Shown in pieces: positions 5,348 to 42,737 of a stretch of DNA of 44,042 nucleotides. The stretch covers positions 1 to 44,042 of the forward strand of contig NZ_JAGGJA010000022.1 in NCBI RefSeq assembly GCF_026229185.1. The letters run 5' to 3'. A program made the position numbers and the translations under genes. The stretch comes from Fodinibius salsisoli (GTDB taxonomy: Bacteria; Bacteroidota; Rhodothermia; Balneolales; Balneolaceae). Below the pieces are notes generated by a model. The model had not been told where the DNA came from and did not search any database. It saw nothing but the letters and a program-made list of their open reading frames with translations. Numbering within the stretch: the stretch's first letter is position 1; every line of letters starts with the position of its first letter.

Positions 5348-5415
5348 GGTGCTTCCTCTTTAATTTCGTTTTAATTATATGGATGGAACCTGACAAAGTT
5401 AGGATTCTGAATAAT

Positions 5416-5643
5416 TTACCGACCTAACTTACCCAAAACATATCCAACTGCAATACCACTGATAAAAGCTATGGATACTCCCTGTTCTGGATGGGACCGC
5501 ACATAACGACGGGCTTCTCGATAGTCTCGATCTATAATCTCTTGCAACGCTTTACGTTCTTGCTGCAAACGCTTGATTAAATGTTCGTACTTTTCAACCT
5601 GATTCCCGGGGATTCCCGCGCGGTTCTTGCTATCAGATGCCAT
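5416..5643 (-). CDS. Small YqjD/ElaB (DUF883)-like membrane-anchored protein
   Basis: A 75-residue protein with a charged coiled-coil-like helix (about residues 15-50, rich in Glu, Lys, Arg and Gln) and a C-terminal hydrophobic Gly-containing segment (VSIAFISGIAVGYVLGKLGR). The phrase YVRSHPEQGVSIAF matches the YVREHPWQAVGIGA pattern of YqjD/ElaB proteins, which tether to the inner membrane by the C-terminal helix and in E. coli associate with ribosomes in stationary phase. Family assignment is by pattern only. It lies 68 bp upstream of the prfB GTG start on the same strand. Confidence 0.7.
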   Translation of the reverse strand: MASDSKNRAGIPGNQVEKYEHLIKRLQQERKALQEIIDRDYREARRYVRSHPEQGVSIAFISGIAVGYVLGKLGR

Positions 5644-5853
5644 AAGGAAATTTCTTTAGTTTCATTGAATATGTTCAAAGATACAAATTTCATTGGGGAT
5701 TACACGACCAAATTTATCGCATTAATTTATATTGCCAAGCGGGCGTCTAAGTTGAAAGCATAAGATGAATCCAATCAGATGAGCTCCTTCTTTACAGAAA
5801 GTTTACAATTCATTCATATAGAATACACATCTGTTTTATAGATTTTCGATTCT

Positions 5854-22881: not shown

Positions 22882-24048
22882 GTGATTCAATCATTTGAAG
22901 AGATACTCAGTTTGCTTTCCTCCTCTCAAAAAACGGCCAAAGAGCTCAAGGAAATACTACTGGCCAATTTGGTAATGGTCGGAGAAATTCCTGCCCCCAC
23001 ATTTGAGAAAGAGGATCGAATAGAATTCCTGCTTAACAGGTTTAAGGAAGCGGAAATCGCCCACAACTCAGTGGATGAAGCAGGCAATGGCATTGGTATT
23101 TTAGAAGGCTCCTCCAATAAGGAGTCCATTCTATTGGTAGCTCATGCAGATACAGTCTTTGATTCTAAAGTAGACCATACCATCCAGATACAACCGAAGA
23201 CGGTGCAAGGGCCTGGCGTAGCGGATAACAGTTTGGGGCTCGCCGTCCTGGCAACCATCCCTACCATTCTGGAGGAACTGGATATTGAGCTCAGCCATAA
23301 CCTCATCCTGATGGGAGCCACTCGCAGCCTGGGACGGGGCAATCTGAAAGGGCTTCGATTTTTCTTATCCCATTTTGATCAACCCCTGAAAGCTGGTTTA
23401 GGTATTGAAGGAGTAGAGCTGGGACGATTGAGTCATACTTCTATCGGTATGAGACGAGGTGAGCTGACGTGCGAAGTCCCGGAAACCTATGATTGGTCAC
23501 GCTTTGGAGATGCCAGTGCAATCCTCACTATTAATGAGCTTATCAACCGTATCAACAAAATTAAGACGCCACAACGCCCCCGAACGAGTATTGTCTTGGG
23601 ATCGATAGAAGGCGGAAGTTCGTTTACCACAGCAAAAAAAGCAAAGCTACAATTTGAAATTCGCTCCGAGTCGTCAGAGCTGGTTCAGGAGATTCATCAG
23701 AACATGCGGGAAATTGTCGAAGAGGTCTCTTCCCGAAGTGGTGATCGTATTGAACTGGATATTTTTGCCGAAAGACGACCTGGAGGGCTTAAGTTTTCCC
23801 ATCCATTGGTAAAAAGAACGCGACAAATCATGGATCATCTGGATATTGAATCACGCCCCGGCCCCAGTACATCCGAGCTATCAGCATTCATAGATCAAGA
23901 GATTCCGGCTATTACGCTGGGTATATCCAAAGGAAGTAACGTTCGGGGAAAAGATGAAACCGTAGAAATTGAACCGATCTATACCGGCATTGCACAGATA
24001 ATTGGTACCTTGTTAGCTATTGACGGAGGTTATTGTGAAGAAACTTGA
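22882..24048 (+). CDS. M20-fold metallopeptidase-like protein, probably catalytically degenerate
   Basis: 388 residues from a GTG start, with M20 architecture. The first metal motif reads VAHADTV (H88, D90) and the bridging Asp is in GPGVADNSLG (D115). However, the place where M20 enzymes have the catalytic Glu-Glu pair (as in GEEGLGNLRG) reads ATRSLGRGNLKG, residues 146-157, so both Glu are gone. The C-terminal metal His region reads NVRGKDETVEI, also without His. The dimerisation-lid part (about 185-300) is intact. It is probably a non-peptidase. It is the first gene of an overlapping operon with the glucosyl-3-phosphoglycerate synthase, so a role in osmolyte metabolism is likely but undefined. 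Confidence 0.8.
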   Translation: MIQSFEEILSLLSSSQKTAKELKEILLANLVMVGEIPAPTFEKEDRIEFLLNRFKEAEIAHNSVDEAGNGIGILEGSSNKESILLVAHADTVFDSKVDHTIQIQPKTVQGPGVADNSLGLAVLATIPTILEELDIELSHNLILMGATRSLGRGNLKGLRFFLSHFDQPLKAGLGIEGVELGRLSHTSIGMRRGELTCEVPETYDWSRFGDASAILTINELINRINKIKTPQRPRTSIVLGSIEGGSSFTTAKKAKLQFEIRSESSELVQEIHQNMREIVEEVSSRSGDRIELDIFAERRPGGLKFSHPLVKRTRQIMDHLDIESRPGPSTSELSAFIDQEIPAITLGISKGSNVRGKDETVEIEPIYTGIAQIIGTLLAIDGGYCEET

Positions 24049-25027
24049 CCAATGGATTAATAATAACACCTACCACCATTGCCAGTTTTGGGATCTGAAG
24101 AAGTTAGTAGAAGCCAAGGAAAAAAATGAGCTGACGATTTCTCTTTGCCTGCCTACGCTTAATGAAGAAAAGACCATTGGCAAGGAAGTGGTTATCTTTA
24201 AATCTGAACTTGTTGACCGCTATCCCCTGCTGGATGAGATCGCAGTTATCGATTCAGGATCGGATGACAATACCCGTGAAGTAGCCTCAAATTTTGGTGC
24301 GGATGTTTACCTGGCAGACGAAATATTGCCCCATATCAAATCCAAGAAAGGCAAAGGAGAAAACCTCTGGAAAGCAATCTACCAGTTAAAAGGAGATATT
24401 ATCGTTTATGTGGATGCTGATATCAGCAACATCCATCCCCGATTTGTCTATGGACTGGTAGCGCCCCTTATTTATAGAGAGAAAATCAAATACGTCAAAG
24501 CCTTTTATGATCGACCGCTGGCGGTATCGGGAAACGTTCGCGCTTCCGGTGGCGGTCGGGTTACGGAAATCCTTATTCGCCCGCTCTTCTCCCTCTACTT
24601 CCCCGAATTGACCGGTATCATTCAGCCGCTTTCCGGGGAATATGCAGTCCGTCGGGAAGTGCTGGAGCATATCAACTTCCCCATCGGCTATGGTGTTGAG
24701 ACCTCGCACCTGATCGACGTTTACACCAAATATGGACTGGAAGCCTTTGCCCAAACCGACCTCGACCAACGCGTGCATGAAAACAAACCGACACAGGCAC
24801 TGGGAAAGATGGCTTTTGGTATCTTACAAACCTTTATCAAACGAGCCAAACATTTGGGGATCATTGAAAAGATTGATGACTTCCAAACCGTTTTACGGCA
24901 AACACAGGCCAAGGATAAGGTCTATGAACAGGCTGAACTTGAAATTGTGGAAGAAGAACGTCCGCCCATGATTGAAATAGATGCTTATCGTGAAAAGTTT
25001 AACCGTACGTCTGATATACATGAATAG
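24035..25027 (+). CDS. gpgS: Glucosyl-3-phosphoglycerate synthase (GT81)
   Basis: Transfers glucose from a nucleotide sugar to 3-phosphoglycerate, the first step to the osmolyte glucosylglycerate. Motifs: LPTLNEEKTIG (40-50), the nucleotide-sugar binding IDSGSDDNT (72-80), the metal-binding DAD in VYVDADI (127-129), and GGGRVTEILIRPL ... QPLSGEYAVRREVL, which is characteristic of GpgS. I place the start at GTG 24035, five bases after GGAGG (24025-24029), giving 330 residues and a 14-bp overlap with the M20-like gene. A TTG 15 bases upstream is in frame but has no SD. Translationally coupled on both sides. Confidence 0.92.
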   Translation: MKKLDQWINNNTYHHCQFWDLKKLVEAKEKNELTISLCLPTLNEEKTIGKEVVIFKSELVDRYPLLDEIAVIDSGSDDNTREVASNFGADVYLADEILPHIKSKKGKGENLWKAIYQLKGDIIVYVDADISNIHPRFVYGLVAPLIYREKIKYVKAFYDRPLAVSGNVRASGGGRVTEILIRPLFSLYFPELTGIIQPLSGEYAVRREVLEHINFPIGYGVETSHLIDVYTKYGLEAFAQTDLDQRVHENKPTQALGKMAFGILQTFIKRAKHLGIIEKIDDFQTVLRQTQAKDKVYEQAELEIVEEERPPMIEIDAYREKFNRTSDIHE

Positions 25028-25922
25028 AGCACAGCTACTGAAGCGCATTCGGGATCTCACTCATCCCCTTTCTCCTATTTCAATCAATCATCCTCAAAAG
25101 CTGCAGCCCCTGCAGGATATCCAGTGTGTAGCTTTTGACTTTTATGGCACCATGTTTATATCGGCTGTTGGAGATATCGGTATCGATGAGGATCAACAGT
25201 CTAAAAGTGCCGACTATTTTACCGCTTCCCTTAAAGATTGTGGGCTTACGATCTTGCATGAACAAGCCGGCGATCGCGGGCAAACATTATTTAAAGATAC
25301 CATTACTGCTCATATTTCTTCGGCTCAAACCGATGGCGTTGACCATCCGGAACCCGATGTGCGTACCGTATGGTTTGAAGTTCTGCAGAAGATGCAAAAG
25401 GAGCAGCTTATTGCCGGTTCGGTTACCCAAGGACTTGCCCTGCGCTTTGGCATTGAGTTCGAATTCCGAATTAATGATATTTGGCCCGTACCCGATTTAA
25501 AAAAGCTACTCAAAAACCTGTTGGATGATGGCCTTCAATTAGGCATTATTTCGAACTCTCAGTTTTATACTCCAATTGCATTTGAAGCATTCCTGGGGGT
25601 AAGTCCTGCAGAGTTTGGTTTTAATCCCGATTTATTGGTTTGGTCGTATCAGACCGGCCTCAAAAAACCTTCAGAAGAATTTTACAAGGTCTTTGACCGT
25701 GCTGCCAATAAAGAAGGATTACAACCGGAACAAATACTATATGTCGGCAACGATATCCGTAAAGACATCCGACCTGCTAAAAACCTGGGGATGCGCACAG
25801 CGCTCTATGTAGGCGACCAGCGATCTATTCGCCATGAAACCCGGGAGCTGGATGAAAGTGATTTTCAGCCCGACCTTATCATTCGGGATCTCCATCAAAT
25901 ACTCCAGTGCCTAGATAGCTAG
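25020..25922 (+). CDS. HAD-superfamily phosphatase, candidate glucosyl-3-phosphoglycerate phosphatase
   Basis: 300 residues. Motif I is AFDFYGTMF with nucleophile D40; the second acidic residue is Tyr (D-x-Y), as in haloacid-dehalogenase-like members. Motif II is IISNSQF, the Lys is in GLKKPSEEF, and motif IV is YVGNDIRKDIRPAKNLG with the Asp pair. The ATG at 25020 overlaps the gpgS stop by 8 bp, so the two are coupled. The expected next step is removal of phosphate from glucosyl-3-phosphoglycerate, and this gene is the only candidate here. That role is inferred from context; the fold would also fit other small phosphoesters. Its 3' end overlaps the convergent phosphorylase gene by 12 bp. Confidence 0.82.
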   Translation: MNRAQLLKRIRDLTHPLSPISINHPQKLQPLQDIQCVAFDFYGTMFISAVGDIGIDEDQQSKSADYFTASLKDCGLTILHEQAGDRGQTLFKDTITAHISSAQTDGVDHPEPDVRTVWFEVLQKMQKEQLIAGSVTQGLALRFGIEFEFRINDIWPVPDLKKLLKNLLDDGLQLGIISNSQFYTPIAFEAFLGVSPAEFGFNPDLLVWSYQTGLKKPSEEFYKVFDRAANKEGLQPEQILYVGNDIRKDIRPAKNLGMRTALYVGDQRSIRHETRELDESDFQPDLIIRDLHQILQCLDS

Positions 25923-27632
25923 CCAAACCGTTTTAAACGGTTCAAGTTTAAGCTCGTTCTTTATGGTAAGCTGATCACCCGTCAAGATATTCGTATAGGT
26001 ATCAGCTTCGGCTATGAAGGAAGACAGCAGTTCTCTGGCCAGAGATTTGTGCTCATGGGTTATATTGCTAATGCAGAGGATATTTTCTTCGTCCGAACTC
26101 CGGTGCAGCACAAAAAAATCATTTCCCAAGTCCAGTACTTCTTGTTTCGCTGCGGGACTAAACGCCGAATGCTGCTTGCGAATCTGCAATAATTCTTTAT
26201 ACCGTGTTAATATATAATGAGTTATATCATTTGTTTGGCTTAAATGCTCTTCCAGCTCTTCCTCTCCCCACTGTTTCCTATTGATGGCACGCTTTTCACC
26301 GGTTTCCGTAACACCGTCCAAATAATTTTTAGTGGCCGTGAAGTTATGGAAATAGACCCCGGGCACGCCCTGTAGGCTCAGCATGATAATCTGCGAGCAT
26401 AAATATCGTTTTACCTGGAACTGTGTATCTTTTCTGCCCGGCTCGGCAAAGGCATCGTAGTAAGTGATATTTAGCTCGTAAGGACTTTGAGAATTATCTT
26501 CATTCTTTTTATACGATACAAATCCCCCTCTTTCCTTGGTACTTTTGATCAAATAATCGAACTCTTCATCGGGGACTAATCCTTCCAGAGGGCGTACTCC
26601 GATGCCATCATGGGAGGCGGTAAAATTAAAATAGGTGCACCCTTCCCGGGGTTCCGGCAGCTCCTGAGCCCACTGTGTGAGGTATTGCCCATTTTCTGTT
26701 AGAATAGCATGCAAAAGCAGCGGAGGCAGGCTAAACTGGTAAATCATATGGGCTTCATCACCGTCCCCGAAATAATTGATATTCTCATCAAACGGTACAT
26801 TGGTTTCCGTAATCAGCGTTATATCGGGATCAATATGATCCACTATATCGCGGAAAAGTTTGATAACCTGGTGCGTCTCTTCAAGGTGAATAGAGTTGGT
26901 ACCTATTTCTTTCCACAAGTAGGCAATTGCATCAAGCCGGATTAAGTTGATCCCCTTCGACAGATAAAACAGAAAGATATCTACGAATTCAATAAGGACA
27001 TCCGGGTTGATAAAATTAAGATCTATCTGGTCATCACTGAATGTTGTCCAAACATACTGCATCCCCCGGTTGGTCTTGACCGTAGTTAAAAGAGGGCTGC
27101 TGCGAGGTCGGGTTACATTAGAAAGATCGGTAGAGGGATCAACTTCAATAAAGTAATCCTTCCCGGGGGCTTTTCCCATCTGGTAATTTTCAAACCAATC
27201 GCTAAACCTTGAAGTGTGATTGATCACCAGGTCTGCCATCACATTATATTTTTCAGAGAGCGATTCAATATCTTCCCAATCTCCAAGATCTTCTCGTACT
27301 TTCAAGTAATCAATGACCGAAAAGCCCTGGTCTGATGAGCTGGGGAAAAAGGGCAAAATATGAACGGTATTTACAGCATCTCCCAACCTTTTTTCTACGA
27401 ATTCTTTTAATGTCTGTAGCTTATTCTTCTGGCCGTTCTCAGGCAGAATGACATCTCCATACGTTATGAGTACAGCATCTTCCTGGCTGAAGGATATTCT
27501 GGATGATGGGGTATCCCTCAATCTAAGGTTGTGCTTGCCTACAAGCTTTTTAAGCCGGTTTAACAGATCCCTTTTTTGTTCGGATCCATATAAAAACTCA
27601 AGTCGTTGTAATGCTTTATCATCAAAACTCAT
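25911..27632 (-). CDS. GH13_18 phosphorylase, probable glucosylglycerate phosphorylase
   Basis: 573 residues of the sucrose-phosphorylase subfamily of GH13. Region I is ADLVINHTS (133-141), region II is INLIRLDAIAY with nucleophile D234, region III is LITETNVP with acid/base E276, and region IV is NFTASHDGIGVRP (H341, D342). The ASHDGIGVRP form is seen in glucosylglycerate rather than sucrose phosphorylases, as I recall the subfamily. The reaction would be glucosylglycerate plus phosphate to glucose 1-phosphate plus glycerate. Position opposite gpgS strongly supports this: synthesis and recycling of one osmolyte lie tail to tail. Sucrose phosphorylase remains an alternative. Confidence 0.85.
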   Translation of the reverse strand: MSFDDKALQRLEFLYGSEQKRDLLNRLKKLVGKHNLRLRDTPSSRISFSQEDAVLITYGDVILPENGQKNKLQTLKEFVEKRLGDAVNTVHILPFFPSSSDQGFSVIDYLKVREDLGDWEDIESLSEKYNVMADLVINHTSRFSDWFENYQMGKAPGKDYFIEVDPSTDLSNVTRPRSSPLLTTVKTNRGMQYVWTTFSDDQIDLNFINPDVLIEFVDIFLFYLSKGINLIRLDAIAYLWKEIGTNSIHLEETHQVIKLFRDIVDHIDPDITLITETNVPFDENINYFGDGDEAHMIYQFSLPPLLLHAILTENGQYLTQWAQELPEPREGCTYFNFTASHDGIGVRPLEGLVPDEEFDYLIKSTKERGGFVSYKKNEDNSQSPYELNITYYDAFAEPGRKDTQFQVKRYLCSQIIMLSLQGVPGVYFHNFTATKNYLDGVTETGEKRAINRKQWGEEELEEHLSQTNDITHYILTRYKELLQIRKQHSAFSPAAKQEVLDLGNDFFVLHRSSDEENILCISNITHEHKSLARELLSSFIAEADTYTNILTGDQLTIKNELKLEPFKTVWLAI

Positions 27633-27878: not shown

Positions 27879-28718
27879 TTACTGCTGATTTAATTCAACC
27901 GTTCCTATATCCTTGGTTTTTCCTGTTTGTACGGTTACATCTTCAACTGTGGCGGATTGGTAACTGTCAACACGAGGGTTCACGGATACATCATAACTGC
28001 CTTCTTCAAGACCAATAAGTCTGAAGTCTCCGCTGGTAGTATCAGCAATAGTCGAAGCAAGAGTATCTGATCCTGCAATAGCGTAAACTACAGGTTGGGC
28101 ATCAGCAGGGTTCACAACGCCTTCAATATTACCGGTAATAGCCTTTTCTGAGGCTTTAATAACCGGCTTCAACAGGTATTTCTGTGCATTGCCGGGTTGC
28201 CCAGCAGCTACAACCGAGCGACTGGCATCAAAGTCCAATAGTAATACATATTCAATATCAGACTGAATTTCCGCATTGATATTAAGCTTAATGCCGGTCT
28301 GTGCTCCACTTGGCACCATCATGCTATGCTCAGTGCCATCCACCACCACGCTGTGACCGTTTGTGCTTAAAATCAGTCGTATTTGTTCATAAATGCCCGG
28401 TTCGAGCTCTTTGGTACCGATCACTTCAGTGGCACCGTTAACTAATTCAAGCAGATTATAGCTCTGCTGGGGTTCGCTTAATACAATCCATTCTCCCTCT
28501 TCTCCCTCGGAATCTTGTGCCTGTACTTCAACGCGTTCGATGAACACATTTACCGCATCGGCCGAATCAATGGGTGCATCGGTCATCTCTACCGTCATTG
28601 TTCCCATACTTCCATCCGATCCGGTACCGTTGTCGTCACAACCTGTGAAGAAAACCGCTGCAGCAAGAAAAAATGCAAATGGTATTGATAATATTTTATT
28701 CCGTAACATATCTTTCAT
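27879..28718 (-). CDS. DUF4382 lipoprotein with carboxypeptidase-regulatory-like domain
   Basis: About 279 residues from MKDMLRNK; an ATG 12 codons upstream (28754) is possible but would put extra charged residues before the signal. A lipoprotein signal ends in FFTGC, so the mature Cys is lipidated. The middle (about 40-170) matches DUF4382: MTVEMTDAPID, VFIERVEVQ, YNLLELVNG, ELEPGIYEQIRLIL, LLLDFDASRSVV. The end (about 195-279) is a one-domain CarboxypepD-reg-like sandwich (VNPADAQPVVYAIAG ... GDFRLIGLEEGSYDVSV). DUF4382 function is unknown. It follows the 298-residue exported protein on the same strand. Confidence 0.87.
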   Translation of the reverse strand: MKDMLRNKILSIPFAFFLAAAVFFTGCDDNGTGSDGSMGTMTVEMTDAPIDSADAVNVFIERVEVQAQDSEGEEGEWIVLSEPQQSYNLLELVNGATEVIGTKELEPGIYEQIRLILSTNGHSVVVDGTEHSMMVPSGAQTGIKLNINAEIQSDIEYVLLLDFDASRSVVAAGQPGNAQKYLLKPVIKASEKAITGNIEGVVNPADAQPVVYAIAGSDTLASTIADTTSGDFRLIGLEEGSYDVSVNPRVDSYQSATVEDVTVQTGKTKDIGTVELNQQ

Positions 28719-28833
28719 CTGTCTATGATTAATTATTTTGTTTTGTACTTCCATCTCTGAGCATAAGACGAGCGAAAGGAAGAATGGTTACAGAATTATT
28801 TATTGTTCAATATATTGTAGTAGAAACCTCTCA

Positions 28834-29730
28834 TTAGTTACCTCGATTTCCAGAACCATTTCCGCGTTCAGGCCTGTTTTCCAGGCCTTTGGGTACATTT
28901 CCCGGAGGGCCACCCCCTACTTTGCCGTTGAAAAGATTATCGAGGATTTGTTTGGCCGGGATACCTCCCTCCATTTGCCTGGCCACCCCGTCTACCACGG
29001 AAGCAGCAGGCAGCTGGCTGCGCTGTTGTCCCATTTTTAAAGCAGCAGGCAGTTGCTGTAACTCATTGGCATTGAATCCTCCTCTGAGTGCTCGTATGAT
29101 AAACGAAGCTGATTGTTCTGGTTGGTCAGCAGTAGTGGGCAAATCTGAAAGTATTTGCATTGCAGCGACCATATCTGCAGGATAAACTTTTGAAACTACG
29201 GGGTCAGATTCGATTTGAGATAAAATAGTGCTGATATTTCCCGGAGAAACATTCTTCATCAATGACCGCGAAGCTGCCCGGGCCATATCATTACGAAAAT
29301 TTTGTTCGGGCATAGAAGAACCGGCTTGATTCAGCATCTCTTGAACCGCCGGGCGGTTTAACCAGGGATCAACAATGTCGGTTGCCTGCACCATGCTCTG
29401 CTGCACCTGATCCAGAACGGCGATAATACGGTTGCCGGGAATTCCCTTGGAGAACCCTTCAAGTGCTTTGTCGATGGCTAGTTCTCCCGGAAGATTCCTG
29501 GCCGACATATCTACAGCAGACTGCAAAATTTGACGAAGTTGCTGTGAACTGATCCCCTGCGCTTGAGCCCGGTCTTGGAGTTCAGTTAACGAAGCCTCCT
29601 CAACACCAGCTTGTTTGGCCTTTTCAAATAATGAGGATAATTCGCTATTCTGAGCACCTACCTGTTGTCCTGACAGTACCAGCATTCCGCAAGTACATAT
29701 AAAAAGCAATAACTGTTTGTACGTTTTCAT
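28834..29730 (-). CDS. Exported helical protein with Gly/Asn-rich tail
   Basis: 298 residues. A Sec signal peptide (MKTYKQLLLFICTCGMLVLSGQQVGAQ, cleaved after about 27) precedes several helical repeats of about 35-40 residues with a recurring pattern of hydrophobic positions (for example QAQGISSQQLRQILQSAVDM, GIPGNRIIAVLDQVQQSM, GIPAKQILDNLFNGK). The last 25 residues are Gly-, Pro-, Asn- and Arg-rich. I do not recognise the family. It starts 17 bp past the barrel gene and is likely in the same operon, downstream of an ECF sigma factor. Confidence 0.75.
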   Translation of the reverse strand: MKTYKQLLLFICTCGMLVLSGQQVGAQNSELSSLFEKAKQAGVEEASLTELQDRAQAQGISSQQLRQILQSAVDMSARNLPGELAIDKALEGFSKGIPGNRIIAVLDQVQQSMVQATDIVDPWLNRPAVQEMLNQAGSSMPEQNFRNDMARAASRSLMKNVSPGNISTILSQIESDPVVSKVYPADMVAAMQILSDLPTTADQPEQSASFIIRALRGGFNANELQQLPAALKMGQQRSQLPAASVVDGVARQMEGGIPAKQILDNLFNGKVGGGPPGNVPKGLENRPERGNGSGNRGN

Positions 29731-29746: not shown

Positions 29747-31012
29747 TTATTCGACTAATAACATGGCATTTTCACTGCCAAAACCATCATCTACTGTATA
29801 GACTTTATTCGAAAATGGTAGCCAATCTTCCGAACGGCCCTGTACCTTGAGCACTTTATATTCATAGGCTCCTGTTTCCAACAGAAGCTGAGCTCTATAC
29901 ACATTATCGCTACTCTCGGTAAGCGGGATTCCTGTTTTATTCCAATTATTGAAATTTCCCACCAGAAACAGCTGTCCCTCTCCTGAGTAACGGATACGCA
30001 CTTCCTGTTCACCTTTCGTCTTCTTCCATTCCGGGTTTATGCTATAATCTTTTGACCTGAAATGCGGGTTAAAACTAAATCGTAGCCCTCCGGATACCTT
30101 AAATTCAGTAACAGCCTCGCCCGAAGACTCTGACTCAGGTCTTAGCTGAACTCCATTAACCCCGGCAAATAGCGTAAATTGCTTATTGACAGGGAATGTC
30201 CCCTCTATACTCATATTTATGATTCGATCTACGTTTGTAACGGAAATAGTTGAAGGATTCTGATCATTGCCTGGTGGAAATGGTGTTGTCCCATTATCTT
30301 CGGTTGTTGTACTTTCATATTGATATTGGGCCCAACTTCCACTCACTGTTACAGAAGCTCCGTCTCTAAGAAAGTAGGTCACTGATGCCTGGCTGTTGAA
30401 CCCTTCGCGAATATCGGGAAAGGCATCCAATTCCCCATGCAAAGCTGTCCTAAGACGCCACTTATAACTGGGCCACGTCTCAAACTCAAGGCTGTAAAGG
30501 TCAAGCCGGTCCCTGGTTTGATCTACACCTCCATAGTTACGATAGGTGCGAAAATTGGAGCCCGCTTTTGTACGCAACAGTGTAAAAGGTGAAATAAACC
30601 ACGTTAATTGAGGCTGGGCCCATAATAATGTCCGGCTGTATGCTCCCGTCATATAGCTGGCGCCGCCCTCCAAGCCTGCACTTATTTTGTCAGACAGCCA
30701 ATAATTGTAGTTCAGCAAACCCAATCCTCCGCCCCAGTTATCCTGTTGTTCGTTAAAAACGGGCATGTATAACGGACCTCCCATCACAGAGAAGGAATGA
30801 CCATCATTATACCAAGACGTCTGTCCAATAAACGATGTAAAATTATAGCCCGATTCCATCGCCGGATCCCACTCAGATAAAAAGGGATTCAAATAGCTGT
30901 TCGTGGAATACCCCACCCTTGTATCCAGGTAAAATATCGTCTGCCACTGCTGGCTAAATCCACAGGTTGTTAGAGAAAATATAAAACACATTATCAGCAG
31001 GTTCTTTTTCAT
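29747..31012 (-). CDS. Outer-membrane beta-barrel with C-terminal CBM48/AMPK-type domain
   Basis: 421 residues. Signal peptide to about residue 20 (MKKNLLIMCFIFSLTTCGFSQ). Residues about 25-330 show alternating strands with aromatic girdles (for example YFLRDGASVTVSGSWAQYQYES), as in an outer-membrane barrel. Residues about 335-421 are an E-set glycan-binding fold: RIRYSGEGQLFLVGNFNNWNKTGIPL, then VYRAQLLLETGAYEYKVL and DDGFGSENAMLLV. The GNFNNW core is the AMPK/CBM48 hallmark. It overlaps the anti-sigma gene by 4 bp, which carries the same domain type in its periplasmic part. The exact fold of the barrel is inferred. Confidence 0.78.
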   Translation of the reverse strand: MKKNLLIMCFIFSLTTCGFSQQWQTIFYLDTRVGYSTNSYLNPFLSEWDPAMESGYNFTSFIGQTSWYNDGHSFSVMGGPLYMPVFNEQQDNWGGGLGLLNYNYWLSDKISAGLEGGASYMTGAYSRTLLWAQPQLTWFISPFTLLRTKAGSNFRTYRNYGGVDQTRDRLDLYSLEFETWPSYKWRLRTALHGELDAFPDIREGFNSQASVTYFLRDGASVTVSGSWAQYQYESTTTEDNGTTPFPPGNDQNPSTISVTNVDRIINMSIEGTFPVNKQFTLFAGVNGVQLRPESESSGEAVTEFKVSGGLRFSFNPHFRSKDYSINPEWKKTKGEQEVRIRYSGEGQLFLVGNFNNWNKTGIPLTESSDNVYRAQLLLETGAYEYKVLKVQGRSEDWLPFSNKVYTVDDGFGSENAMLLVE

Positions 31013-31737
31013 AAATAGATAACAGCATTTTTATTACCGAAGCCATCATCGCGCTGGATAGTGGCCAGCGGATCTGTCATCCATTGATCTTCATTTTTAA
31101 CAAACATATAATGATGTTCTCCGCGCTTCATTGGCACAAGGGCAGTCCATACCTGTTTTCCATCGATCTGCTGACTTCTCATTTCTACGGGCTCCCAATC
31201 ATTAAAGTCACCTGCTACTGCCATCGAATTAGCATTTTCATCGATGTAAACAAATCTAAGCATAACTTCCTCCGTACCGGATGAAACTTGTTGTACCGAG
31301 CCATTTACCCCCTCTTTACTTTCACTATTTTCAGCGAATGAGGGCATATCCTCTTTCATCTGTTGCGTCAGGTACCATGGATATAAGAAGGCAGCCAATG
31401 CCAATACCACCATTGCAAAAGTGTAAGCCGGCCGCCATTGTATCTGTTTTGGAGTAAATAACCCGCGAAACCAAGCTTTCAGCTGTTGATAAACCGAAAG
31501 GCTCTGTATTTCGTCCGCCAGTGCAATTTGCTGCATAACCTGCGCCGAAAAATTCTCCGGCACGATTTCCCTGTCATAGTCGAGCGATTCATCTAAAGAA
31601 ACCTCATTGAGCCGTTGCTCAAATCGTAACATAGCACGCAGCTCTTCGTCCTCAGCAATTGTATGCAAGGCTCGTTTCTCTTCTTCAGACGATAAATTAC
31701 CCTCCAGGTAACCCCGGAGCAATTCATCCTTGTTCAT
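31009..31737 (-). CDS. Anti-sigma factor with periplasmic CBM48/AMPK-type domain
   Basis: 242 residues. The cytoplasmic part (1-about 110) resembles anti-sigma N-termini (DELLRGYLEGNLSSEEEKRALHTIAEDEELRAML) but lacks the zinc-binding His-x3-Cys-x2-Cys. One membrane helix follows (about 119-140, YTFAMVVLALAAFLYPWYL). The rest is periplasmic and ends in a CBM48-like E-set domain (EEVMLRFVYIDENANSMAVAGDFNDWEPVEM ... GEHHYMFVKNEDQWMTDP ... DDGFGNKNAVIYL). It begins 5 bp after the sigma gene and overlaps the barrel gene by 4 bp. Holding the sigma factor until a glycan or envelope cue is sensed is the natural model, but binding is unproven. Confidence 0.85.
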   Translation of the reverse strand: MNKDELLRGYLEGNLSSEEEKRALHTIAEDEELRAMLRFEQRLNEVSLDESLDYDREIVPENFSAQVMQQIALADEIQSLSVYQQLKAWFRGLFTPKQIQWRPAYTFAMVVLALAAFLYPWYLTQQMKEDMPSFAENSESKEGVNGSVQQVSSGTEEVMLRFVYIDENANSMAVAGDFNDWEPVEMRSQQIDGKQVWTALVPMKRGEHHYMFVKNEDQWMTDPLATIQRDDGFGNKNAVIYL

Positions 31738-31742
31738 AATGT

Positions 31743-32306
31743 TCAGCTATTTTTTTCTATGTATGTTTTCAACTCTTTCTTGGCTCGGTATACTCGAACC
31801 TTGAGGGCGCTGACAGACACCCCCAACCGTTGCGACATCGCATTATAGGTCATCCTAGACCTATATTTCATCAAAAAAGCCTCTGCGTATTCTTGGTTTA
31901 TCACCTTCAACCCTTCTTCCAATAATTGCAGCCATTCGTTTTTTTCCATATCAGTATCGGCTCTGCTTTCATCCTTCATTTGCTGCTCTAATTTATGCTG
32001 ATTCATCTCGCTAAAGGATTTATTTTGCCGGCGAACATTTTTTACATAATCTCTGCAGTGGTTTTTGGCAATCATATACAACCAGGATGAAAAACGAGAC
32101 TTCTTATCAAAAGAGGCCAGTCGTTCATATGTTTTCACAAAAATATCTTGTGCCAGTTCTTCTGCCTCATCTCTGTAATCCACGAACTGGTTGACGATGT
32201 GAAAAACCATCGGGGCATACTGATCCACCAATTCGCGATAGCGGTCTTTGTTCCCATTAAGGACCGCATCCACTATCTGAAATTCTTTTTCATTTTTCAT
32301 ACGCAA
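31743..32306 (-). CDS. ECF-type RNA polymerase sigma factor
   Basis: 187 residues. Region 2 is seen as DQYAPMVFHIVNQFVDYRDEAEELAQDIFVKTYERL and SFDKKSRFSSWLYMIAKNHCRDYVK (about 28-95). Region 4 has YAEAFLMKYRSRMTYNAMSQRLGVSVSALKVRVYRAKKELK, the DNA-reading helix-turn-helix for the -35 element (about 138-180). It directs RNA polymerase to a small regulon, usually including its own operon. It is the first gene of a tight run with its anti-sigma factor, the CBM48 barrel and, after 17- and ~80-bp gaps, two exported proteins. Confidence 0.95.
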   Translation of the reverse strand: MRMKNEKEFQIVDAVLNGNKDRYRELVDQYAPMVFHIVNQFVDYRDEAEELAQDIFVKTYERLASFDKKSRFSSWLYMIAKNHCRDYVKNVRRQNKSFSEMNQHKLEQQMKDESRADTDMEKNEWLQLLEEGLKVINQEYAEAFLMKYRSRMTYNAMSQRLGVSVSALKVRVYRAKKELKTYIEKNS

Positions 32307-32533
32307 GAAAAACTGACTGCAAAAGGTGGTAATAGCCTGGTTTCAGTATCATAAAATAAAGTTCAGATAGTTTCCACTATTCATATGACGATCAAACCGG
32401 AAGATAGTTACCAAATTTTTTGACATAGATATTCAGCGGTTATCAGAATATCTTTATGTATCTAATGTTGTAATTGTTACCTTTAGAGTTAAAGATGTTG
32501 TTAAGTTCATAAAGATCAGAAATAGGCATTTCT
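32307..32533. promoter_or_regulatory. Divergent promoter region, sigma operon / sigma-54 activator
   Basis: 227 bp between the ECF operon (minus) and the sigma-54 activator (plus). AT-rich. An autoregulated ECF promoter is expected here by family habit, but no -35/-10 pair was assigned. Confidence 0.4.
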
Positions 32534-38143: not shown

Positions 38144-41116
38144 ATGAATGATATAAAAAAGCTACTAATAACAACGTCCCTATTATTGGGCTTTGCTCTG
38201 CCTGGTATTGCCCAAATTACTGTATCAGGTATTGTCACGGATGCCAGCGATGGTCAACCATTGCCTGGGGTAAATATTATTGTCCAAAATGCTCCTTCCG
38301 TGGGGACTTCCTCCAGAGCCGATGGGGCATATTCTCTGTCAGTGCCTTCGGAAACCGACACCCTCATTTTTTCTTTTGTTGGATATATAAAGCAAGAAGT
38401 TCCGATTGATGGTCGCTCAACGATTGACATTGCACTTTCCTCAGATATCCAGGCGCTCGATGATGTGGTGGTCATTGGTTATGGTACTCAGGATGTTGAT
38501 GACAATACCGGATCGGTCACAGCCGTAAATGCAGATGACTTTAATGAAGGCGCTATCACCTCTCCGGAGGAACTGTTCCAGGGCAAGACGGCCGGCGTCA
38601 ACGTAACCTCTAATGATGGCGCTCCCGGCAGCGGAGCTACCATTCGTATTCGTGGTGGCTCTTCCCTATCGGCCAGCAACGATCCCCTCTTTGTAGTAGA
38701 TGGAGTGCCGCTGGATGGCAGTGGTGTTTCGGGGATGAGAAGCCCACTAAATACCATCAATCCCAATGACATTGCCTCCATAACGGTGCTCAAAGATGCC
38801 TCCGCTACTGCTATTTATGGTTCCAGGGCTTCGAACGGGGTCATCATTATTGAAACCAAAAAAGGAACGGTTGGCCAAGAGTTAAAGGTTAATTATACCG
38901 GAAAGTTTTCAGTGCAGACCAACCGAAACCAGGTGGATGTTCTATCAGCTGACCAGTTCCGGAATGTGATCCGGGAACAGTTTGGGGAAGATGGCAGCCA
39001 GTATTTAGGGGAAGCCAGTACCAATTGGCAAAATAAAATCTATAAACAATCGCTGAGCCAGGACCATAACCTGAGCTTTACCGGAGCTGTCAATCAACTT
39101 CCTTACCGTCTCTCGCTGGGCTATTCAGGAAACAATGGAATCCTGAAAACCTCTCAATTAGATCGACTAACGGGATCTCTGGCCTTAACGCCCACTTTTC
39201 TGGATGATCGCCTGAAAATAGACCTTAATCTCAAAGGCATGCAGGTAAATAATCAGTTTGCCAATCAGGCCGCTATAGGATCTGCAGTTGTATTTGACCC
39301 CACGAAGCCCGTGAAAGTAGAGGGCGAAAACCGTTTCGACGGTTATTATACCTGGGTGGATGCTGACGGAAGTCCTATTTCTATAGCTCCGTCCAATCCC
39401 GTGGCACTGCTGAATCAGACTAATGACGAATCCACAGTCTACCGCTCTATTGGAAATGTTAAATTCGATTATACAACTTCATTTCTGCCCGAGCTAAGTG
39501 CAACGCTCAATCTGGGATACGACTATTCGGATGTTGGCGATGGATTATATACTGTCCCGGAAACGGCGGCCTTCGAATACTCGGGCGCCAATGAAGCGAA
39601 TGGCGTGCGACGTGATTATTCTCAGAAAAAAGAAAATGAACTGCTCGACTTTTATCTGAATTACAATGATGACCTTTCTTCTATTGACAGTAAAGTGGAT
39701 CTGACGGCCGGCTATTCGTGGGAGCATCACTATTCCAGGGGCTCCGAATACGCCACTAACTTCGACCGCTCTTCTACGCTTGTTGTCGATCAGGATACCG
39801 ACTATGAGACCGAGCACTACATCATTTCCTTCTTTGGGCGTATGAATTACACTTTTAAGGATAAGTACCTGCTGACAGCTACGCTCCGCCAGGATGGTAC
39901 CTCAAGGTTCTCGGAAGATAATCGATGGGGCCTCTTTCCGTCTGCCGCCCTGGCATGGAAGATGCACAAAGAGCCCTTCCTTAAGGGCATTGATGATATC
40001 AGCCAGTTAAAACTCCGCCTGGGATATGGCGTTACGGGCCAGCAGCGAATCGGCCAGGGTGACTATCCCTACTTGGGTCGTTACACTTATGGAGAACCGA
40101 CCGCCTCTTATCAATTCGGGGATACATTTCTGGAAACACTTCGTCCTGAAGGCTACAATGCCAACCTCAAATGGGAAGAAACCACAACCTATAACCTTGG
40201 GCTCGATTATGGATTTTTAAATGATCGCATTTATGGATCTGTAGAAACCTATTACCGAGAAACAACGGATCTGCTAAATGTAGTACCCGTTCCAGCCGGA
40301 ACCAACTTTACCAACCGCATTCTATCAAATGTAGGAACGCTGGAGGTTAAAGGAGTTGAATTTAATATAACCGGACGTCCGATTTCAACAGACAATACAT
40401 TCTGGGAAGTTGGCTTTAATCTCTCCCACAATACCAATGAGATTACTAAACTTACTACCGCTGACGACCCAGATTACATTGGAGTTGAAACCGGGGGTAT
40501 CGCTGGGGGGACCGGCAATACCATCCAAATCCATAGCGTTGGTCACCCACGAAGCTCTTTCTATGTTCATGAGCAAGTTTATGATCAAGATGGAAATCCC
40601 ATTGAAGGACTCTATGTTGACCGCAACGATGACGGAGTGGTTGATGAAGATGATAAGTATCGGTATCAAAACCCAGATGCAGATGTAACCCTCGGGCTTT
40701 CATCACGATTAGAATATAAAAATTGGGATGCTTCCTTTTCAGCTCGCGCAAGCTTAGGTAACTACATCTACAATAATGTAGCTTCGAGCAATTCCTTTTA
40801 TAGCGACATGTTGTACACCCAGTACATCCGCAATACGCCTACCTCTATTTTCGATACTGATTTCAATACCGAACAGTTTCATTCTGATCATTATGTCGAA
40901 AATGCCTCTTTCCTGCGCATGGATAACATCACGCTGGGATATACCTTCAGTGATGTGCTGACTGCTGTCTCTTCACTTCGATTGTCAGCTACAGTGCAAA
41001 ATGCTTTTGTGATTACCAACTACAGCGGACTCGATCCAGAAGTATTTGGCGGTATTGACAACAACCTTTACCCACGTCCACGCACCTTCATGTTAGGTGT
41101 AAATCTGAATTTCTAA
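38144..41116 (+). CDS. SusC/RagA-family TonB-dependent outer-membrane transporter
   Basis: 990 residues. Signal peptide to about 23, then the CarboxypepD-reg-like N-terminal domain (TVSGIVTDASDGQPLPGVNIIV, 25-47), a TonB-box-like VVVIGYGTQ, the plug domain (GVNVTSNDGAPGSGATIRIRGGSSL, VLKDASATAIYGSRASNGVIII) and the 22-strand barrel to the end (RTFMLGVNLNF). It carries oligosaccharides across the outer membrane with TonB energy. Followed 5 bp later by the SusD gene. The substrate is unknown; the operon's operators suggest induction by a sugar. Confidence 0.96.
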   Translation: MNDIKKLLITTSLLLGFALPGIAQITVSGIVTDASDGQPLPGVNIIVQNAPSVGTSSRADGAYSLSVPSETDTLIFSFVGYIKQEVPIDGRSTIDIALSSDIQALDDVVVIGYGTQDVDDNTGSVTAVNADDFNEGAITSPEELFQGKTAGVNVTSNDGAPGSGATIRIRGGSSLSASNDPLFVVDGVPLDGSGVSGMRSPLNTINPNDIASITVLKDASATAIYGSRASNGVIIIETKKGTVGQELKVNYTGKFSVQTNRNQVDVLSADQFRNVIREQFGEDGSQYLGEASTNWQNKIYKQSLSQDHNLSFTGAVNQLPYRLSLGYSGNNGILKTSQLDRLTGSLALTPTFLDDRLKIDLNLKGMQVNNQFANQAAIGSAVVFDPTKPVKVEGENRFDGYYTWVDADGSPISIAPSNPVALLNQTNDESTVYRSIGNVKFDYTTSFLPELSATLNLGYDYSDVGDGLYTVPETAAFEYSGANEANGVRRDYSQKKENELLDFYLNYNDDLSSIDSKVDLTAGYSWEHHYSRGSEYATNFDRSSTLVVDQDTDYETEHYIISFFGRMNYTFKDKYLLTATLRQDGTSRFSEDNRWGLFPSAALAWKMHKEPFLKGIDDISQLKLRLGYGVTGQQRIGQGDYPYLGRYTYGEPTASYQFGDTFLETLRPEGYNANLKWEETTTYNLGLDYGFLNDRIYGSVETYYRETTDLLNVVPVPAGTNFTNRILSNVGTLEVKGVEFNITGRPISTDNTFWEVGFNLSHNTNEITKLTTADDPDYIGVETGGIAGGTGNTIQIHSVGHPRSSFYVHEQVYDQDGNPIEGLYVDRNDDGVVDEDDKYRYQNPDADVTLGLSSRLEYKNWDASFSARASLGNYIYNNVASSNSFYSDMLYTQYIRNTPTSIFDTDFNTEQFHSDHYVENASFLRMDNITLGYTFSDVLTAVSSLRLSATVQNAFVITNYSGLDPEVFGGIDNNLYPRPRTFMLGVNLNF

Positions 41117-41142
41117 ATAGAATGTATAAAACCACGGATATT

Positions 41143-42708
41143 ATGTTTATCAAAAACTATAAAATTGTATCAGCAGCATTGCTTGCCATGATCGTTTTGT
41201 TCATGGCCTCTTGCGTGGACAACCTCAACACCAGCCCCCTCGACAATGATATTGTAACATCAGAGGCGGTGTATGAAACCCCTGAAGATTATCGGCAGGT
41301 ACTTGCCAAACTTTATGCCGGATTTGCAGCAACCGGGCAGCAAGGGCCATCCGGTAATGCAGATATCCAAGGCATTGATGAAGGATTTTCAAGTTACATT
41401 CGTCAATTTTGGGTAGCCCAGGAAATTCCAACCGACGAAGCAGTCGTCGCCTGGACGGATCCCGGCCTTCCTGAATTTAATTATCAATCATGGGGGGCTT
41501 CCAACGATTTTGTCATGGGAATGTACAGCCGCATCTTTTATGAAATCACGCTGGCCAATGAGTTTATCAGGAATGCGAACGGCAACGAAAACTCTATGGT
41601 CCAAAGTTATAATGCTGAAGCACGATTCCTCCGGGCCCTCAGCTATTGGCATGCGCTTGATTTTTATGGAGGAGGGATTCCTTTTGTAACCGAAAAGGAT
41701 GGAGTTGGTGCTTACAACCCGCAACCGGCTTCGGCTGATTCCGTTTTTTCTTATATCGAAAATGAGCTGCTTGCCATTGAAGATCAGCTTCCAGCTACCG
41801 GCCAAAATGAATACGGACGCGCCGGTCAGGCAGCGGCATGGACGCTCCTGGCTAAGCTCTATTTAAATGCCGAAGTTTATACCGGTGAACAGCGTTACAG
41901 TGATGCCCTTTCCTATGCTGATAAAGTTATTGAAAGTGGAGCCTATGCGCTCGAAGACAACTATCAACACCTGTTCCTGGCCGATAATCACACCGCTGAT
42001 GGCATTATCTTCCCTATCACTTTCGATGGTGAGCATACCAAAACCTACGGAGGTACGAATTTTATCGTCCATGCAGCCGTAGGAGGCGACATGAGCGCAA
42101 CGGAGTTCGGCATTGACGCGGGCTGGGCCGGACACCGAACTACTCCTCAATTGGTCGATAAGTTTGACCAAGAGAACGATAGCCGCGCGTTGTTTTTTAC
42201 CGAGGGACAAGAGCTCGAAATTCAAGACATTGAAGACTTTAAGCAGGGCTATGCCATCACGAAATGGAAAAACATTACCTCTGATGGCCAGCCTGGTTCT
42301 TTCCCTGAATTTGTGGATACTGACTTCCCCATGTTCCGTCTTGCGGATGTATACCTCATATATGCCGAAGCAGTAGCGCGCGGCGCCGAAGGCGGTAATA
42401 CCGCCAAAGCCGTTGACCTGGTAAACCAAATCAGGGAACGAGCCTTTGGCGATGCTTCCCAAAATATTACCCCCGGTGAATTAACCCCGGAATTCATCCT
42501 GGATGAACGGGCACGTGAGCTCTACTGGGAAGGTCATCGGCGGACAGATCTCATCCGCTACGGTCATTTTACCTCTGCAGATTACGTCTGGGCCTGGAAA
42601 GGAAATACACAAGAAGGTGCCGCTACCAGCGATCATTATGCGCTCTTCCCTATTCCATCCTCAGATGTGAATTCAAATACAAACCTGACGCAGAATTTGG
42701 GTTATTAA
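41143..42708 (+). CDS. SusD/RagB-family glycan-binding lipoprotein
   Basis: 521 residues from MFIKNYKIV; an ATG 7 codons upstream (41122) is possible. The lipoprotein signal ends in LFMASC (mature Cys). SusD hallmarks follow: TPEDYRQVLAKLYAGFA, NAEARFLRALSYWHALDFYGGGIPFVT, the TPR-like middle with GRAGQAAAWTLLAKLYLNA, and the C-terminal RARELYWEGHRRTDLIRYGHF. It is the extracellular lid of the SusC transporter. It starts right after susC, and the SusE-domain gene follows immediately. Confidence 0.95.
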   Translation: MFIKNYKIVSAALLAMIVLFMASCVDNLNTSPLDNDIVTSEAVYETPEDYRQVLAKLYAGFAATGQQGPSGNADIQGIDEGFSSYIRQFWVAQEIPTDEAVVAWTDPGLPEFNYQSWGASNDFVMGMYSRIFYEITLANEFIRNANGNENSMVQSYNAEARFLRALSYWHALDFYGGGIPFVTEKDGVGAYNPQPASADSVFSYIENELLAIEDQLPATGQNEYGRAGQAAAWTLLAKLYLNAEVYTGEQRYSDALSYADKVIESGAYALEDNYQHLFLADNHTADGIIFPITFDGEHTKTYGGTNFIVHAAVGGDMSATEFGIDAGWAGHRTTPQLVDKFDQENDSRALFFTEGQELEIQDIEDFKQGYAITKWKNITSDGQPGSFPEFVDTDFPMFRLADVYLIYAEAVARGAEGGNTAKAVDLVNQIRERAFGDASQNITPGELTPEFILDERARELYWEGHRRTDLIRYGHFTSADYVWAWKGNTQEGAATSDHYALFPIPSSDVNSNTNLTQNLGY

Positions 42709-42737
42709 TAATGTTGAACGTCAAAAATATGATGATA

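Follow-up and report, generated by a model that had tools for sequence, protein, structure and literature searches.

The window analyzed here, a 44,042-nucleotide stretch of Fodinibius salsisoli DNA, contains on its reverse strand an operon led by the gene for an ECF sigma factor (positions 31743 to 32306), which is followed after a gap of 5 bp by a gene for a membrane anti-sigma factor (31009 to 31737) and, with an overlap of 4 bp, by a gene for an outer-membrane barrel protein (29747 to 31012). ORF coordinates thus reproduce the gene positions, gap, and overlap given in an earlier note on this DNA. The unit in that note lacked two further downstream genes, namely, hel (28834 to 29730), which encodes a secreted, helical-looking protein and is a neighbor in many loci, and a gene for a DUF4382 lipoprotein (27879 to 28754, with a likely start nearer 28706). 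It also lacked two predicted ECF promoters of the form GTAAC-N16-CGTC, identified by a motif search and comparison with relatives: P1, located 5' of the sigma factor gene (32387 to 32411), and P2, located 5' of the DUF4382 gene (28767 to 28791).

The sigma factor ORF opens with TTG at 32306, but an ATG two codons further in, at 32300, is the likelier translation start. The protein matches Pfam families Sigma70_r2 (PF04542) and Sigma70_r4_2 (PF08281), i.e., regions 2 and 4 only, and its top match among the 25 of 93 NCBIfam matches listed is TIGR02937 (sigma70-ECF). A Pfam search of the anti-sigma protein found no anti-sigma domain family, and NCBIfam anti-sigma families gave weak matches (19.2 bits against a cutoff of 100, among 25 of 93 matches listed); its role also rests on its position after the sigma factor. 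The N terminus is helical in the structure model, a hydrophobic, putative membrane helix at about residues 103 to 130 was read off the sequence and the model, and residues 156 to 242 (31012 to 31272) make up a C-terminal CBM48/AMPK1_CBM domain. This tail (residues 167 to 240) scores 30.7 bits against AMPK1_CBM (PF16561; gathering score, 26.8) and 23.8 bits against CBM_48 (PF02922; gathering score, 22.4), and its model resembles the AMPK beta CBM, an E-set fold (Z score, 13.4; root mean square deviation, 1.4; 82 aligned residues), with a CBM48 match also returned by Foldseek (E value, 1.1e-6). A search with the anti-sigma factor against plasmids gave no match.

The barrel protein ends in a CBM48-type domain as well (about residues 333 to 421; 29750 to 30016). 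Its tail (residues 338 to 420) lies above the gathering score of 26.8 for AMPK1_CBM, with 32.5 bits, and under that of 22.4 for CBM_48, with 18.6 bits; a profile search with the barrel alignment retrieves AMPK beta chains. When the whole genome was searched with the PF16561 profile, the anti-sigma domain was the only match listed, and that search therefore overlooked the barrel domain. The barrel tail was modelled with low to middling confidence, and since the structural matches span the barrel part only, the missing CBM rows in that list are uninformative. The model has 14 long strands, and this even number would place the tail on the periplasmic side. The top structural neighbor is the cyclodextrin porin CymA (Z score, 20.8; identity, 8 to 9%). 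As for the usual TonB-transporter signalling, which the earlier note had thought not to operate here, Pfam at an E value of ≤1 lists no Plug, TonB_dep_Rec, or STN family for the barrel protein and no FecR family for the anti-sigma factor (RsgI_N is likewise absent among the listed matches); with no supporting domain found, TonB-type signalling was rejected.

The likeness of the two tails had first been drawn from motifs, and a profile and structure search had been named beforehand as a check that might refute it. An E-set/CBM48 identity of the tails is supported by profile scores above the cutoff for both and by a fold match for the anti-sigma factor, and the shared AGDFNDW/VGNFNNW and DDGFG-N-A stretches are present and well conserved in an alignment of the window with 20 relatives. 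In view of these scores, the fold match, and the conserved stretches, a chance or motif-only likeness was rejected.

Conservation and distribution of the gene set

Among 58 genomes, strong matches to the anti-sigma factor and to the barrel protein occur in the same 28 and are adjacent in all 28. Together with the profile matches and the confident anti-sigma fold match, this shows that the observation is not due to chance, and the co-conservation of the sigma and anti-sigma genes with the barrel gene, a check also set beforehand, is borne out. All 20 fetched Balneolota relatives have the order sigma-anti-sigma-barrel-hel, and 18 have the DUF4382 gene. A sigma factor, a CBM48-tailed anti-sigma factor, and hel were found again in Nitrospirota, Gemmatimonadota, Acidobacteriota, Myxococcota, and Rokubacteria. 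In Balneolota, the second CBM48 domain is carried by the barrel and in Nitrospirota by a small lipoprotein, and it is present in 20/20 fetched Balneolota loci and 46/47 loci of the Nitrospirota scan. Of 29 Gemmatimonadota loci, some of them truncated at contig ends, 24 showed no such domain inside roughly 1.5 kb, and none was found nearby in the three Acidobacteriota loci with a sigma factor. Hence, the claim that the same fold is shared across the two membranes was drawn too narrowly, and such sharing cannot explain the whole mechanism everywhere. In Nitrospira loci, a separate outer-membrane protein (PF13557) is encoded before the sigma factor; the barrel HMM matched none of the 51 non-Balneolota loci at an E value of ≤1e-3, and homology of this protein with the barrel is therefore unsupported.

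The pairing of the two domains raises the possibility of a FecR/FecA-like contact that requires no glycan, in which the outer-membrane CBM48 tail binds the anti-sigma tail and protects it against proteolysis, and loss of contact frees the sigma factor. The near-constant presence of the second domain in the Balneolota and Nitrospirota-scan loci speaks for this explanation, which we nevertheless consider unlikely: the tail residues stay conserved in the Gemmatimonadota lacking a detected partner, and the mirror-tree signal is weak and unspecific. For Balneolota, the tail-to-tail partial correlation is 0.11, with 96 of 1,000 permutations as high; for Nitrospirota-type loci, it is 0.33 (0 of 1,000), next to 0.31 between the tail and the N terminus of its own anti-sigma factor. 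Tail-to-tail coevolution is thus weak. In a domain tree, the anti-sigma and partner tails group by role and not by species (6 changes, against a minimum of 3 and a shuffled mean of 21.8), which argues against a recent duplication inside Balneolota. The tree is, however, built on only 89 columns, leaves 28 of its 46 internal branches open, and places the Balneolota barrel tails on a long branch.

Promoter motif and predicted targets

The window contains three matches to GTAAC-N16-CGTC (shuffled mean, 0.09), one of them antisense inside the anti-sigma gene. The motif lies 5' of the sigma factor gene in 20/20 fetched relatives, or 21/21 Balneolota operons counting the window (in one relative, L072, 342 bp from the chosen sigma start), and is assigned to the DUF4382 gene in 16 of the 18 relatives having it. 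Across 20 loci, 43 sites were found with the N16 spacing and 0 to 2 with each of twelve other spacings between 10 and 22. An extended motif occurs twice in the F. salsisoli genome, both times at the operon, and a related TTTAC-N16-CGTC is present near the sigma factor gene in 33 of 51 non-Balneolota loci and was not seen in 18. Autoregulated promoters of the AAC/CGTC type are typical of ECF sigma factors. With the motif 5' of the sigma factor gene and usually of the DUF4382 gene, it appears that the sigma factor controls its own operon and targets genes for exported proteins.

Distal motif sites are few, and the raw count shows nothing: 143 matches against 287 for a reversed control in the 58 genomes (3 against 7 in genome G000). 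Support for these sites comes from a comparison of genomes with and without the system and from the identity of the downstream genes. Relative to its control, the motif is more frequent where the system occurs: the 28 genomes with the system have 114 motif and 164 control matches, linked sites included, and the 30 without it have 29 and 123; at least two motif matches occur in 26/28 and 7/30, respectively. In 20 stretches (24 sites) picked by eye from the 143 matches for motif likeness, distal sites in relatives are followed by paralogues of the DUF4382 gene or of hel, and those at L200, L202, L205 to L209, and L212 by unrelated or unclear genes. Of 57 sites surveyed in overlapping loci, some counted twice, 27 have a DUF4382, hel, or sigma match. 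The lipoprotein in the window is assigned to DUF4382 by PF14321 (E value, 3.9e-35), and it is a predicted target; DUF4382 as a general target was rejected, as the genome's two other DUF4382 genes (L268 and L269) have no motif site. No glycan-degrading enzyme was recognized behind the sites inspected, and the SusC/SusD/SusE genes (38144 to 43799) and the GH13 gene (25911 to 27632) have no exact motif site. On these grounds, a polysaccharide utilization regulon was rejected.

The product of hel, with a signal peptide and mostly helical structure as read from its sequence and a Gly/Asn-rich tail, matched no Pfam family above the cutoff, and no RseB family is listed for it or for the barrel protein. 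It stands beside the unit in 20/20 Balneolota, 46/47 Nitrospirota-scan, and 24/29 Gemmatimonadota loci, the misses in these sets falling on loci that stop at the anti-sigma or partner gene or shortly beyond it, and in the three of eight Acidobacteriota loci that have a sigma factor. Hel is therefore a steadier neighbor than the second CBM48 domain, which could make it the true, RseB-like coregulator that caps the anti-sigma tail, with the CBM48 domain of the barrel or lipoprotein as an accessory. We think this decidedly unlikely, as only two of eight loci in the Myxococcota survey have hel (three have the sigma factor) and as hel has a paralogue elsewhere behind the same motif (L211) and duplicates (L078 and L081), a pattern more in keeping with a target gene than with a dedicated regulator.

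Glucan contact residues

The tails were compared at the glucan contact residues of AMPK, W100, K126, W133, and N150. In the anti-sigma tails, the equivalents of W100, W133, and N150 are invariant (76/76 each), and that of K126 is Met in 75/76. The lipoprotein tails are similar (W, 46/46; Met at the K126 position, 43/46; W, 46/46; N, 45/46), and the barrel tails keep all four in most cases (25/25, 21/25, 24/25, and 24/25 in the above order). The 24 anti-sigma factors without a detected nearby second CBM48 domain keep W181 (24/24), W219 (21/24), and N237 (22/24). The motifs that contain the compared residues are widespread in the CBM48 superfamily, so that part of this conservation may have structural reasons, and many alignment rows are close relatives. 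The anti-sigma tail is also less variable than its N terminus and the sigma factor, with mean distances of 0.52, 0.91, and 0.87, respectively, in 21 Balneolota and 0.25, 0.46, and 0.35 for the 45 loci whose partner is a lipoprotein.

A glycan is thus a plausible cue of the switch. Alternatively, the tails may be general E-set modules for protein interaction or folding, with a misfolded outer-membrane protein or a lipid as the cue, as for RseA, and no role for a glycan. This would agree with the loss of the key lysine from the anti-sigma tails and with the recognizable predicted targets, which are exported envelope proteins and not enzymes; K126Q abolishes glycogen binding by AMPK (PMC6274970). 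This alternative is at odds with the retention of both glucan-contacting aromatics over several phyla, and the plant AKIN-beta2 domain binds starch despite missing both Lys and Asn (PMC4032982). On balance, we judge it improbable.

Discussion

The gene set, its domains, the fold of the anti-sigma tail, the co-conservation, the promoter, and the predicted targets are supported by computation. The reading that we prefer, and to which we would give an even chance, is a self-regulated ECF switch that monitors the envelope by reading an envelope glycan via its CBM48 tail or tails. The steps that we infer (sequestration, glycan binding, contact between tails, proteolysis, and a role for hel) would fit together as follows. 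In the resting state, the sigma factor would be held by the cytoplasmic portion of the anti-sigma factor, whose CBM48 tail would lie in the periplasm and read the glycan alone or jointly with the periplasmic tail of the barrel. Altered glycan occupancy or outer-membrane contact would lead to cleavage of the anti-sigma factor, probably by regulated intramembrane proteolysis, and the freed sigma factor would then act at GTAAC-N16-CGTC promoters of its own operon, yielding more anti-sigma factor, barrel, and Hel, and of genes for DUF4382-type exported lipoproteins. The glycan switch is favored by the retained glucan contact aromatics and Asn, the low variability of the tail, and the similarity of the barrel to CymA; it is weakened by Met at the K126 position, the lack of a glycan enzyme among the inspected targets, and the frequent failure to detect a second CBM48 domain.

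As much of the gene set, hel included, recurs in several distant phyla, the switch seems to represent a previously undescribed form of envelope self-monitoring. Within literature searches outside which lie most subscription papers and all preprints, we found no paper linking anti-sigma factors with CBM48 (as judged by titles and abstracts), AMPK1, or early set domains, none joining ECF sigma, anti-sigma, carbohydrate binding, and Nitrospira, and none linking DUF4382 with sigma factors, the one paper listed for DUF4382 being on archaeal glycoproteomics; for isoamylase early set domains and sigma factors, the matches listed were sigma factor papers only. If correct, our reading would extend the ECF/anti-sigma repertoire of hard-to-study Gram-negative phyla (Nitrospira, Gemmatimonadota, and Balneolota) by a sensor domain of the carbohydrate type, and it offers a predicted promoter, a handful of targets, and point mutations for testing. 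It would tie DUF4382 and hel, two unexplained families, to a predicted regulatory circuit and bear on how the state of the outer membrane is reported in cells that have neither classical RseA/RseB nor TonB signalling.

The closest known mechanisms are FecR/FecA-type signalling and RsgI. We know of no counterpart of hel in FecIRA-type systems. In FecI/FecR/FecA, PupI/PupR/PupB, and FoxI/FoxR/FoxA, related periplasmic folds are found on the anti-sigma C terminus and the outer-membrane protein (PMC7186176). The system described here, judged from sequence, likewise combines an ECF sigma factor, a membrane anti-sigma factor, and an outer-membrane barrel, with the tailed outer-membrane protein encoded beside the anti-sigma factor (28/28 genomes having both) and its tail probably on the periplasmic side. 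However, the shared domain is CBM48 and not STN, it sits at the C terminus of the barrel instead of the N terminus, neither a TonB plug nor an STN or FecR domain is found by Pfam, and the partner can be a lipoprotein. In SigI/RsgI of Clostridium thermocellum, the extracytoplasmic C terminus of the anti-sigma factor is a carbohydrate-binding module (PMC4711584). Here, too, a carbohydrate-binding-type module ends the anti-sigma factor and the sigma genes have promoters of their own type, but the cells are Gram negative, the module is CBM48 instead of CBM3, PA14, or CBM42, and the predicted targets are envelope lipoproteins, in contrast to the polysaccharide-degrading enzymes of RsgI regulons. 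RsgI_N is not listed for the anti-sigma factor, and the top sigma matches are ECF, among 25 of 93 NCBIfam matches listed.

The sigma-E system RseA/RseB consists of a membrane anti-sigma factor with a periplasmic tail and a periplasmic partner encoded adjacently, and it has envelope targets. The present system shares the periplasmic-tailed anti-sigma factor, a neighboring partner gene, and predicted envelope targets, but the tail is unrelated, and Hel and the barrel lack an RseB family match. With the CBM48 domains of AMPK beta, SnRK1, and SEX4, it shares the fold and the two Trp and the Asn of the glucan site, but the tail is predicted to be periplasmic, on an anti-sigma factor, and the site lysine has become Met in that protein. 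Tentatively, and with more doubt than confidence, the ECF sigma factor, CBM48-tailed anti-sigma factor, and Hel might define an undescribed, phylum-spanning envelope signalling family, in which the paired CBM48 domains of Balneolota and Nitrospirota would form a glycan-gated periplasmic bridge, a non-TonB counterpart of FecR/FecA.

Results

The earlier note had described an ECF sigma gene, an anti-sigma gene after a 5-bp gap and a barrel gene with a 4-bp overlap, and had proposed that the last two products share a C-terminal glycan-binding-type domain. Both points were borne out. The genes lie in this arrangement on the minus strand of the window (sigma, 31743-32306; anti-sigma, 31009-31737; barrel, 29747-31012); Pfam detected ECF sigma regions 2 and 4 in the sigma factor, and AMPK1_CBM matched above the gathering score at the C termini of the anti-sigma factor and barrel protein. 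The anti-sigma model starts with a helical N-terminal part, followed by a single long hydrophobic helix; beyond a disordered linker lies a confidently modelled beta domain at the C terminus, which resembles the AMPK beta CBM (Foldseek E value, 1.1e-6; structural alignment Z score, 13.4; rmsd, 1.4 over 82 residues). Structure prediction therefore upheld the domain for the anti-sigma tail, while the barrel tail was modelled with only low-to-middling confidence and is probably a CBM48-type domain, as judged by its profile match. The barrel protein model has 14 long strands, and its closest solved structures are the cyclodextrin porin CymA (Z score, 20.8) and OmpG (18.8); since identity is just 8-9%, this likeness reflects a common topology and is no proof of substrate. 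In the congener G007 (locus L066, 8959-10166), the barrel gene lies in two frames near the barrel/CBM48-domain border, through either a sequencing error or a natural separation.

Next on the same strand are hel (28834-29730), encoding a putatively secreted, helical-looking protein, and a DUF4382 gene (27879-28754). The best-conserved stretch of Hel approximates LP-x(n)-K-EGLAKGVP, and the protein had no Pfam match above the cutoff; it may be a target, a co-regulator or both and is the least understood component of the system.

Co-conservation of the barrel was confirmed among 58 genomes drawn from the genus, family and order of the window. The 28 genomes with a strong anti-sigma match are exactly those with a strong barrel match, and the two adjoin in each, some being partial, at a contig end or split; neither gene had a strong match in the remaining 30, including the congener G001. 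The relatives are labelled Fodinibius and other Balneolota, with one labelled Chitinophagaceae (L105). All 20 fetched loci keep the gene order sigma, anti-sigma, barrel, hel, with a DUF4382 gene next in 18 (one locus lacks it nearby and in one the contig ends), and the flanking genes vary. Two Balneolota loci (L078 and L081) have a doubled hel with further motif sites, and in L081 DUF4382 is also doubled.

A predicted promoter motif, GTAAC-N16-CGTC, precedes sigma in the window (P1, 32387-32411) and in all 20 fetched relatives, although in L072 it lies 342 bp from the chosen start. In 276 kb from the 20 loci, spacing 16 occurred 43 times versus 0 to 2 times for each of twelve other spacings (10-22). 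Of the 18 loci with a DUF4382 gene, 16 have a motif copy that was assigned to it; in the window this copy is at 28767-28791 (P2). The listed ATG of this ORF (28754) follows the CGTC element of P2 at a distance of 12 bases, and relatives suggest a true start near 28706. With its second element extended to CGTCNTA, the motif occurs twice in the whole genome of the window, at P1 and P2 (reversed control, five), and no site was found at the genome's other two DUF4382 genes. Across the 58 genomes, the CGTCNYA form gave 143 matches versus 287 for the reversed control; counting linked sites, there were 114 versus 164 in the 28 genomes with the system and 29 versus 123 in the 30 without it, and at least two matches were present in 26 of 28 versus 7 of 30. 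Elsewhere in relatives, sites precede further DUF4382 genes on other contigs or far away (L182, L196, L197, L198, L201 and L210), about 17-20 kb from the operon (L199) or in a genome that is 71% complete and has no strong match to the anti-sigma (L203), as well as a hel paralogue (L211) and, in three genomes (L193-L195), a lipoprotein weakly MbnP-like by a below-cutoff Pfam score on L193 only. The prediction is thus a circuit that regulates itself and has a few exported proteins as its targets.

Scanning the anti-sigma alignment against genome_contigs (one genome per species, 84,980 species) gave at least 347 relatives among 586 stretches. Among the best 80, which were kept, those outside Balneolota are labelled chiefly Nitrospirota, and also Gemmatimonadota, Longimicrobiales, Myxococcales, Acidobacteria and Rokubacteria. 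The 47 Nitrospirota-type loci (one labelled Nitrosospira) have sigma, a second CBM48 domain and hel in 46 cases each, the second domain being carried by a small protein (about 130 residues) whose signal, read by eye, is of the lipoprotein type; in L142, L126 and L127 (Gemmatimonadota, Longimicrobiales and Myxococcales) it ends a longer, barrel-like protein. The motif TTTAC-N16-CGTC is present close to sigma in 33 of the 51 loci from outside Balneolota and, within a slightly wider stretch, in 34 of the 46 Nitrospirota-type loci having sigma; in 623 kb there were 95 pairs at spacing 16 versus 1 to 7 at other spacings from 12 to 20. Sigma lies downstream of 35 of 92 sites and small, mostly exported-looking families behind others, some gene calls being doubtful reading frames; in L113, Pfam identified a DUF5666 lipoprotein gene second behind a site. 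Directly before sigma in this Nitrospira locus (5217-6275) is the gene of a separate protein with a PF13557 match, and similar genes occupy this place in L122 and L130, with the CBM48 domain apart on the lipoprotein. It could be an unfused counterpart of the Balneolota barrel, whose profile does not detect it.

In one-phylum surveys (E ≤ 1e-20; phyla as labelled for the centre genomes), any matching tail was counted, giving 62 of 101 Gemmatimonadota, 9 of 99 Acidobacteriota and 8 of 95 Myxococcota genomes, several matches in the last two being other proteins. Within just ~1.5 kb each side, some cut, 29 further Gemmatimonadota loci had sigma in 26, hel in 24 and a second CBM48 domain in 5; the corresponding numbers were 3, 3 and 0 for 8 Acidobacteriota loci and 3, 2 and 4 for 8 Myxococcota loci. 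These counts point to a recurrent core of sigma, CBM48-tailed anti-sigma and hel, and the second CBM48 domain is steady solely in Balneolota and Nitrospirota.

Discussion

Does the system sense a glycan? Of the AMPK beta glucan-contact residues, W100, W133 and N150 have invariant counterparts in 76 anti-sigma tails, and K126 is replaced by Met in 75. The residues are kept in 25, 24 and 24 of 25 barrel tails, respectively (K126 in 21), and in 46, 46 and 45 of 46 lipoproteins (M at the K126 position in 43), many rows coming from close relatives. They also persist (24, 21 and 22) in 24 anti-sigmas, 21 from Gemmatimonadota and 3 from Acidobacteriota, without a detected second CBM48 domain; the surface is therefore conserved without a nearby CBM48 partner, which favours a ligand over tail-to-tail contact. 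Counting against a glycan, K126Q in AMPK beta1 abolishes glycogen binding (PMC6274970), although starch is bound by the AKIN-beta2 domain of plants, which has neither the Lys nor the Asn (PMC4032982). Glycan binding is a plausible and testable reading of these sequences, and we consider the chances of direct sensing to be about even.

Tandem TonB-dependent receptor, SusD-like and SusE-like genes lie on the plus strand at 38144-43799; the SusE-like protein also matches an X25 pullulanase domain, a hint that genes near the operon serve in the use of alpha-glucans, and no exact motif site precedes these genes. GT2 glycosyltransferase, HAD hydrolase and GH13 (sucrose-phosphorylase-like) genes at 24020-27632 form what we take to be a glucosylglycerate-type solute cluster, and a GH13 gene is also downstream of the operon in L072 and L073.

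Taken together, the sigma/anti-sigma/barrel unit is confirmed as part of a larger recurrent system, of which no description was found in the open-access papers searched. Pfam found no STN, TonB plug, FecR or RsgI domain in the operon proteins; the lack of the first two agrees with the earlier view that this is not TonB-transporter signalling, and the absence of all four places the system outside the FecR/FecA-type and RsgI classes. The RsgI proteins of Clostridium thermocellum are anti-sigma factors with extracytoplasmic carbohydrate-binding modules (PMC4711584). The present system resembles a cross of FecR/FecA-type signalling and RsgI while being a member of neither.
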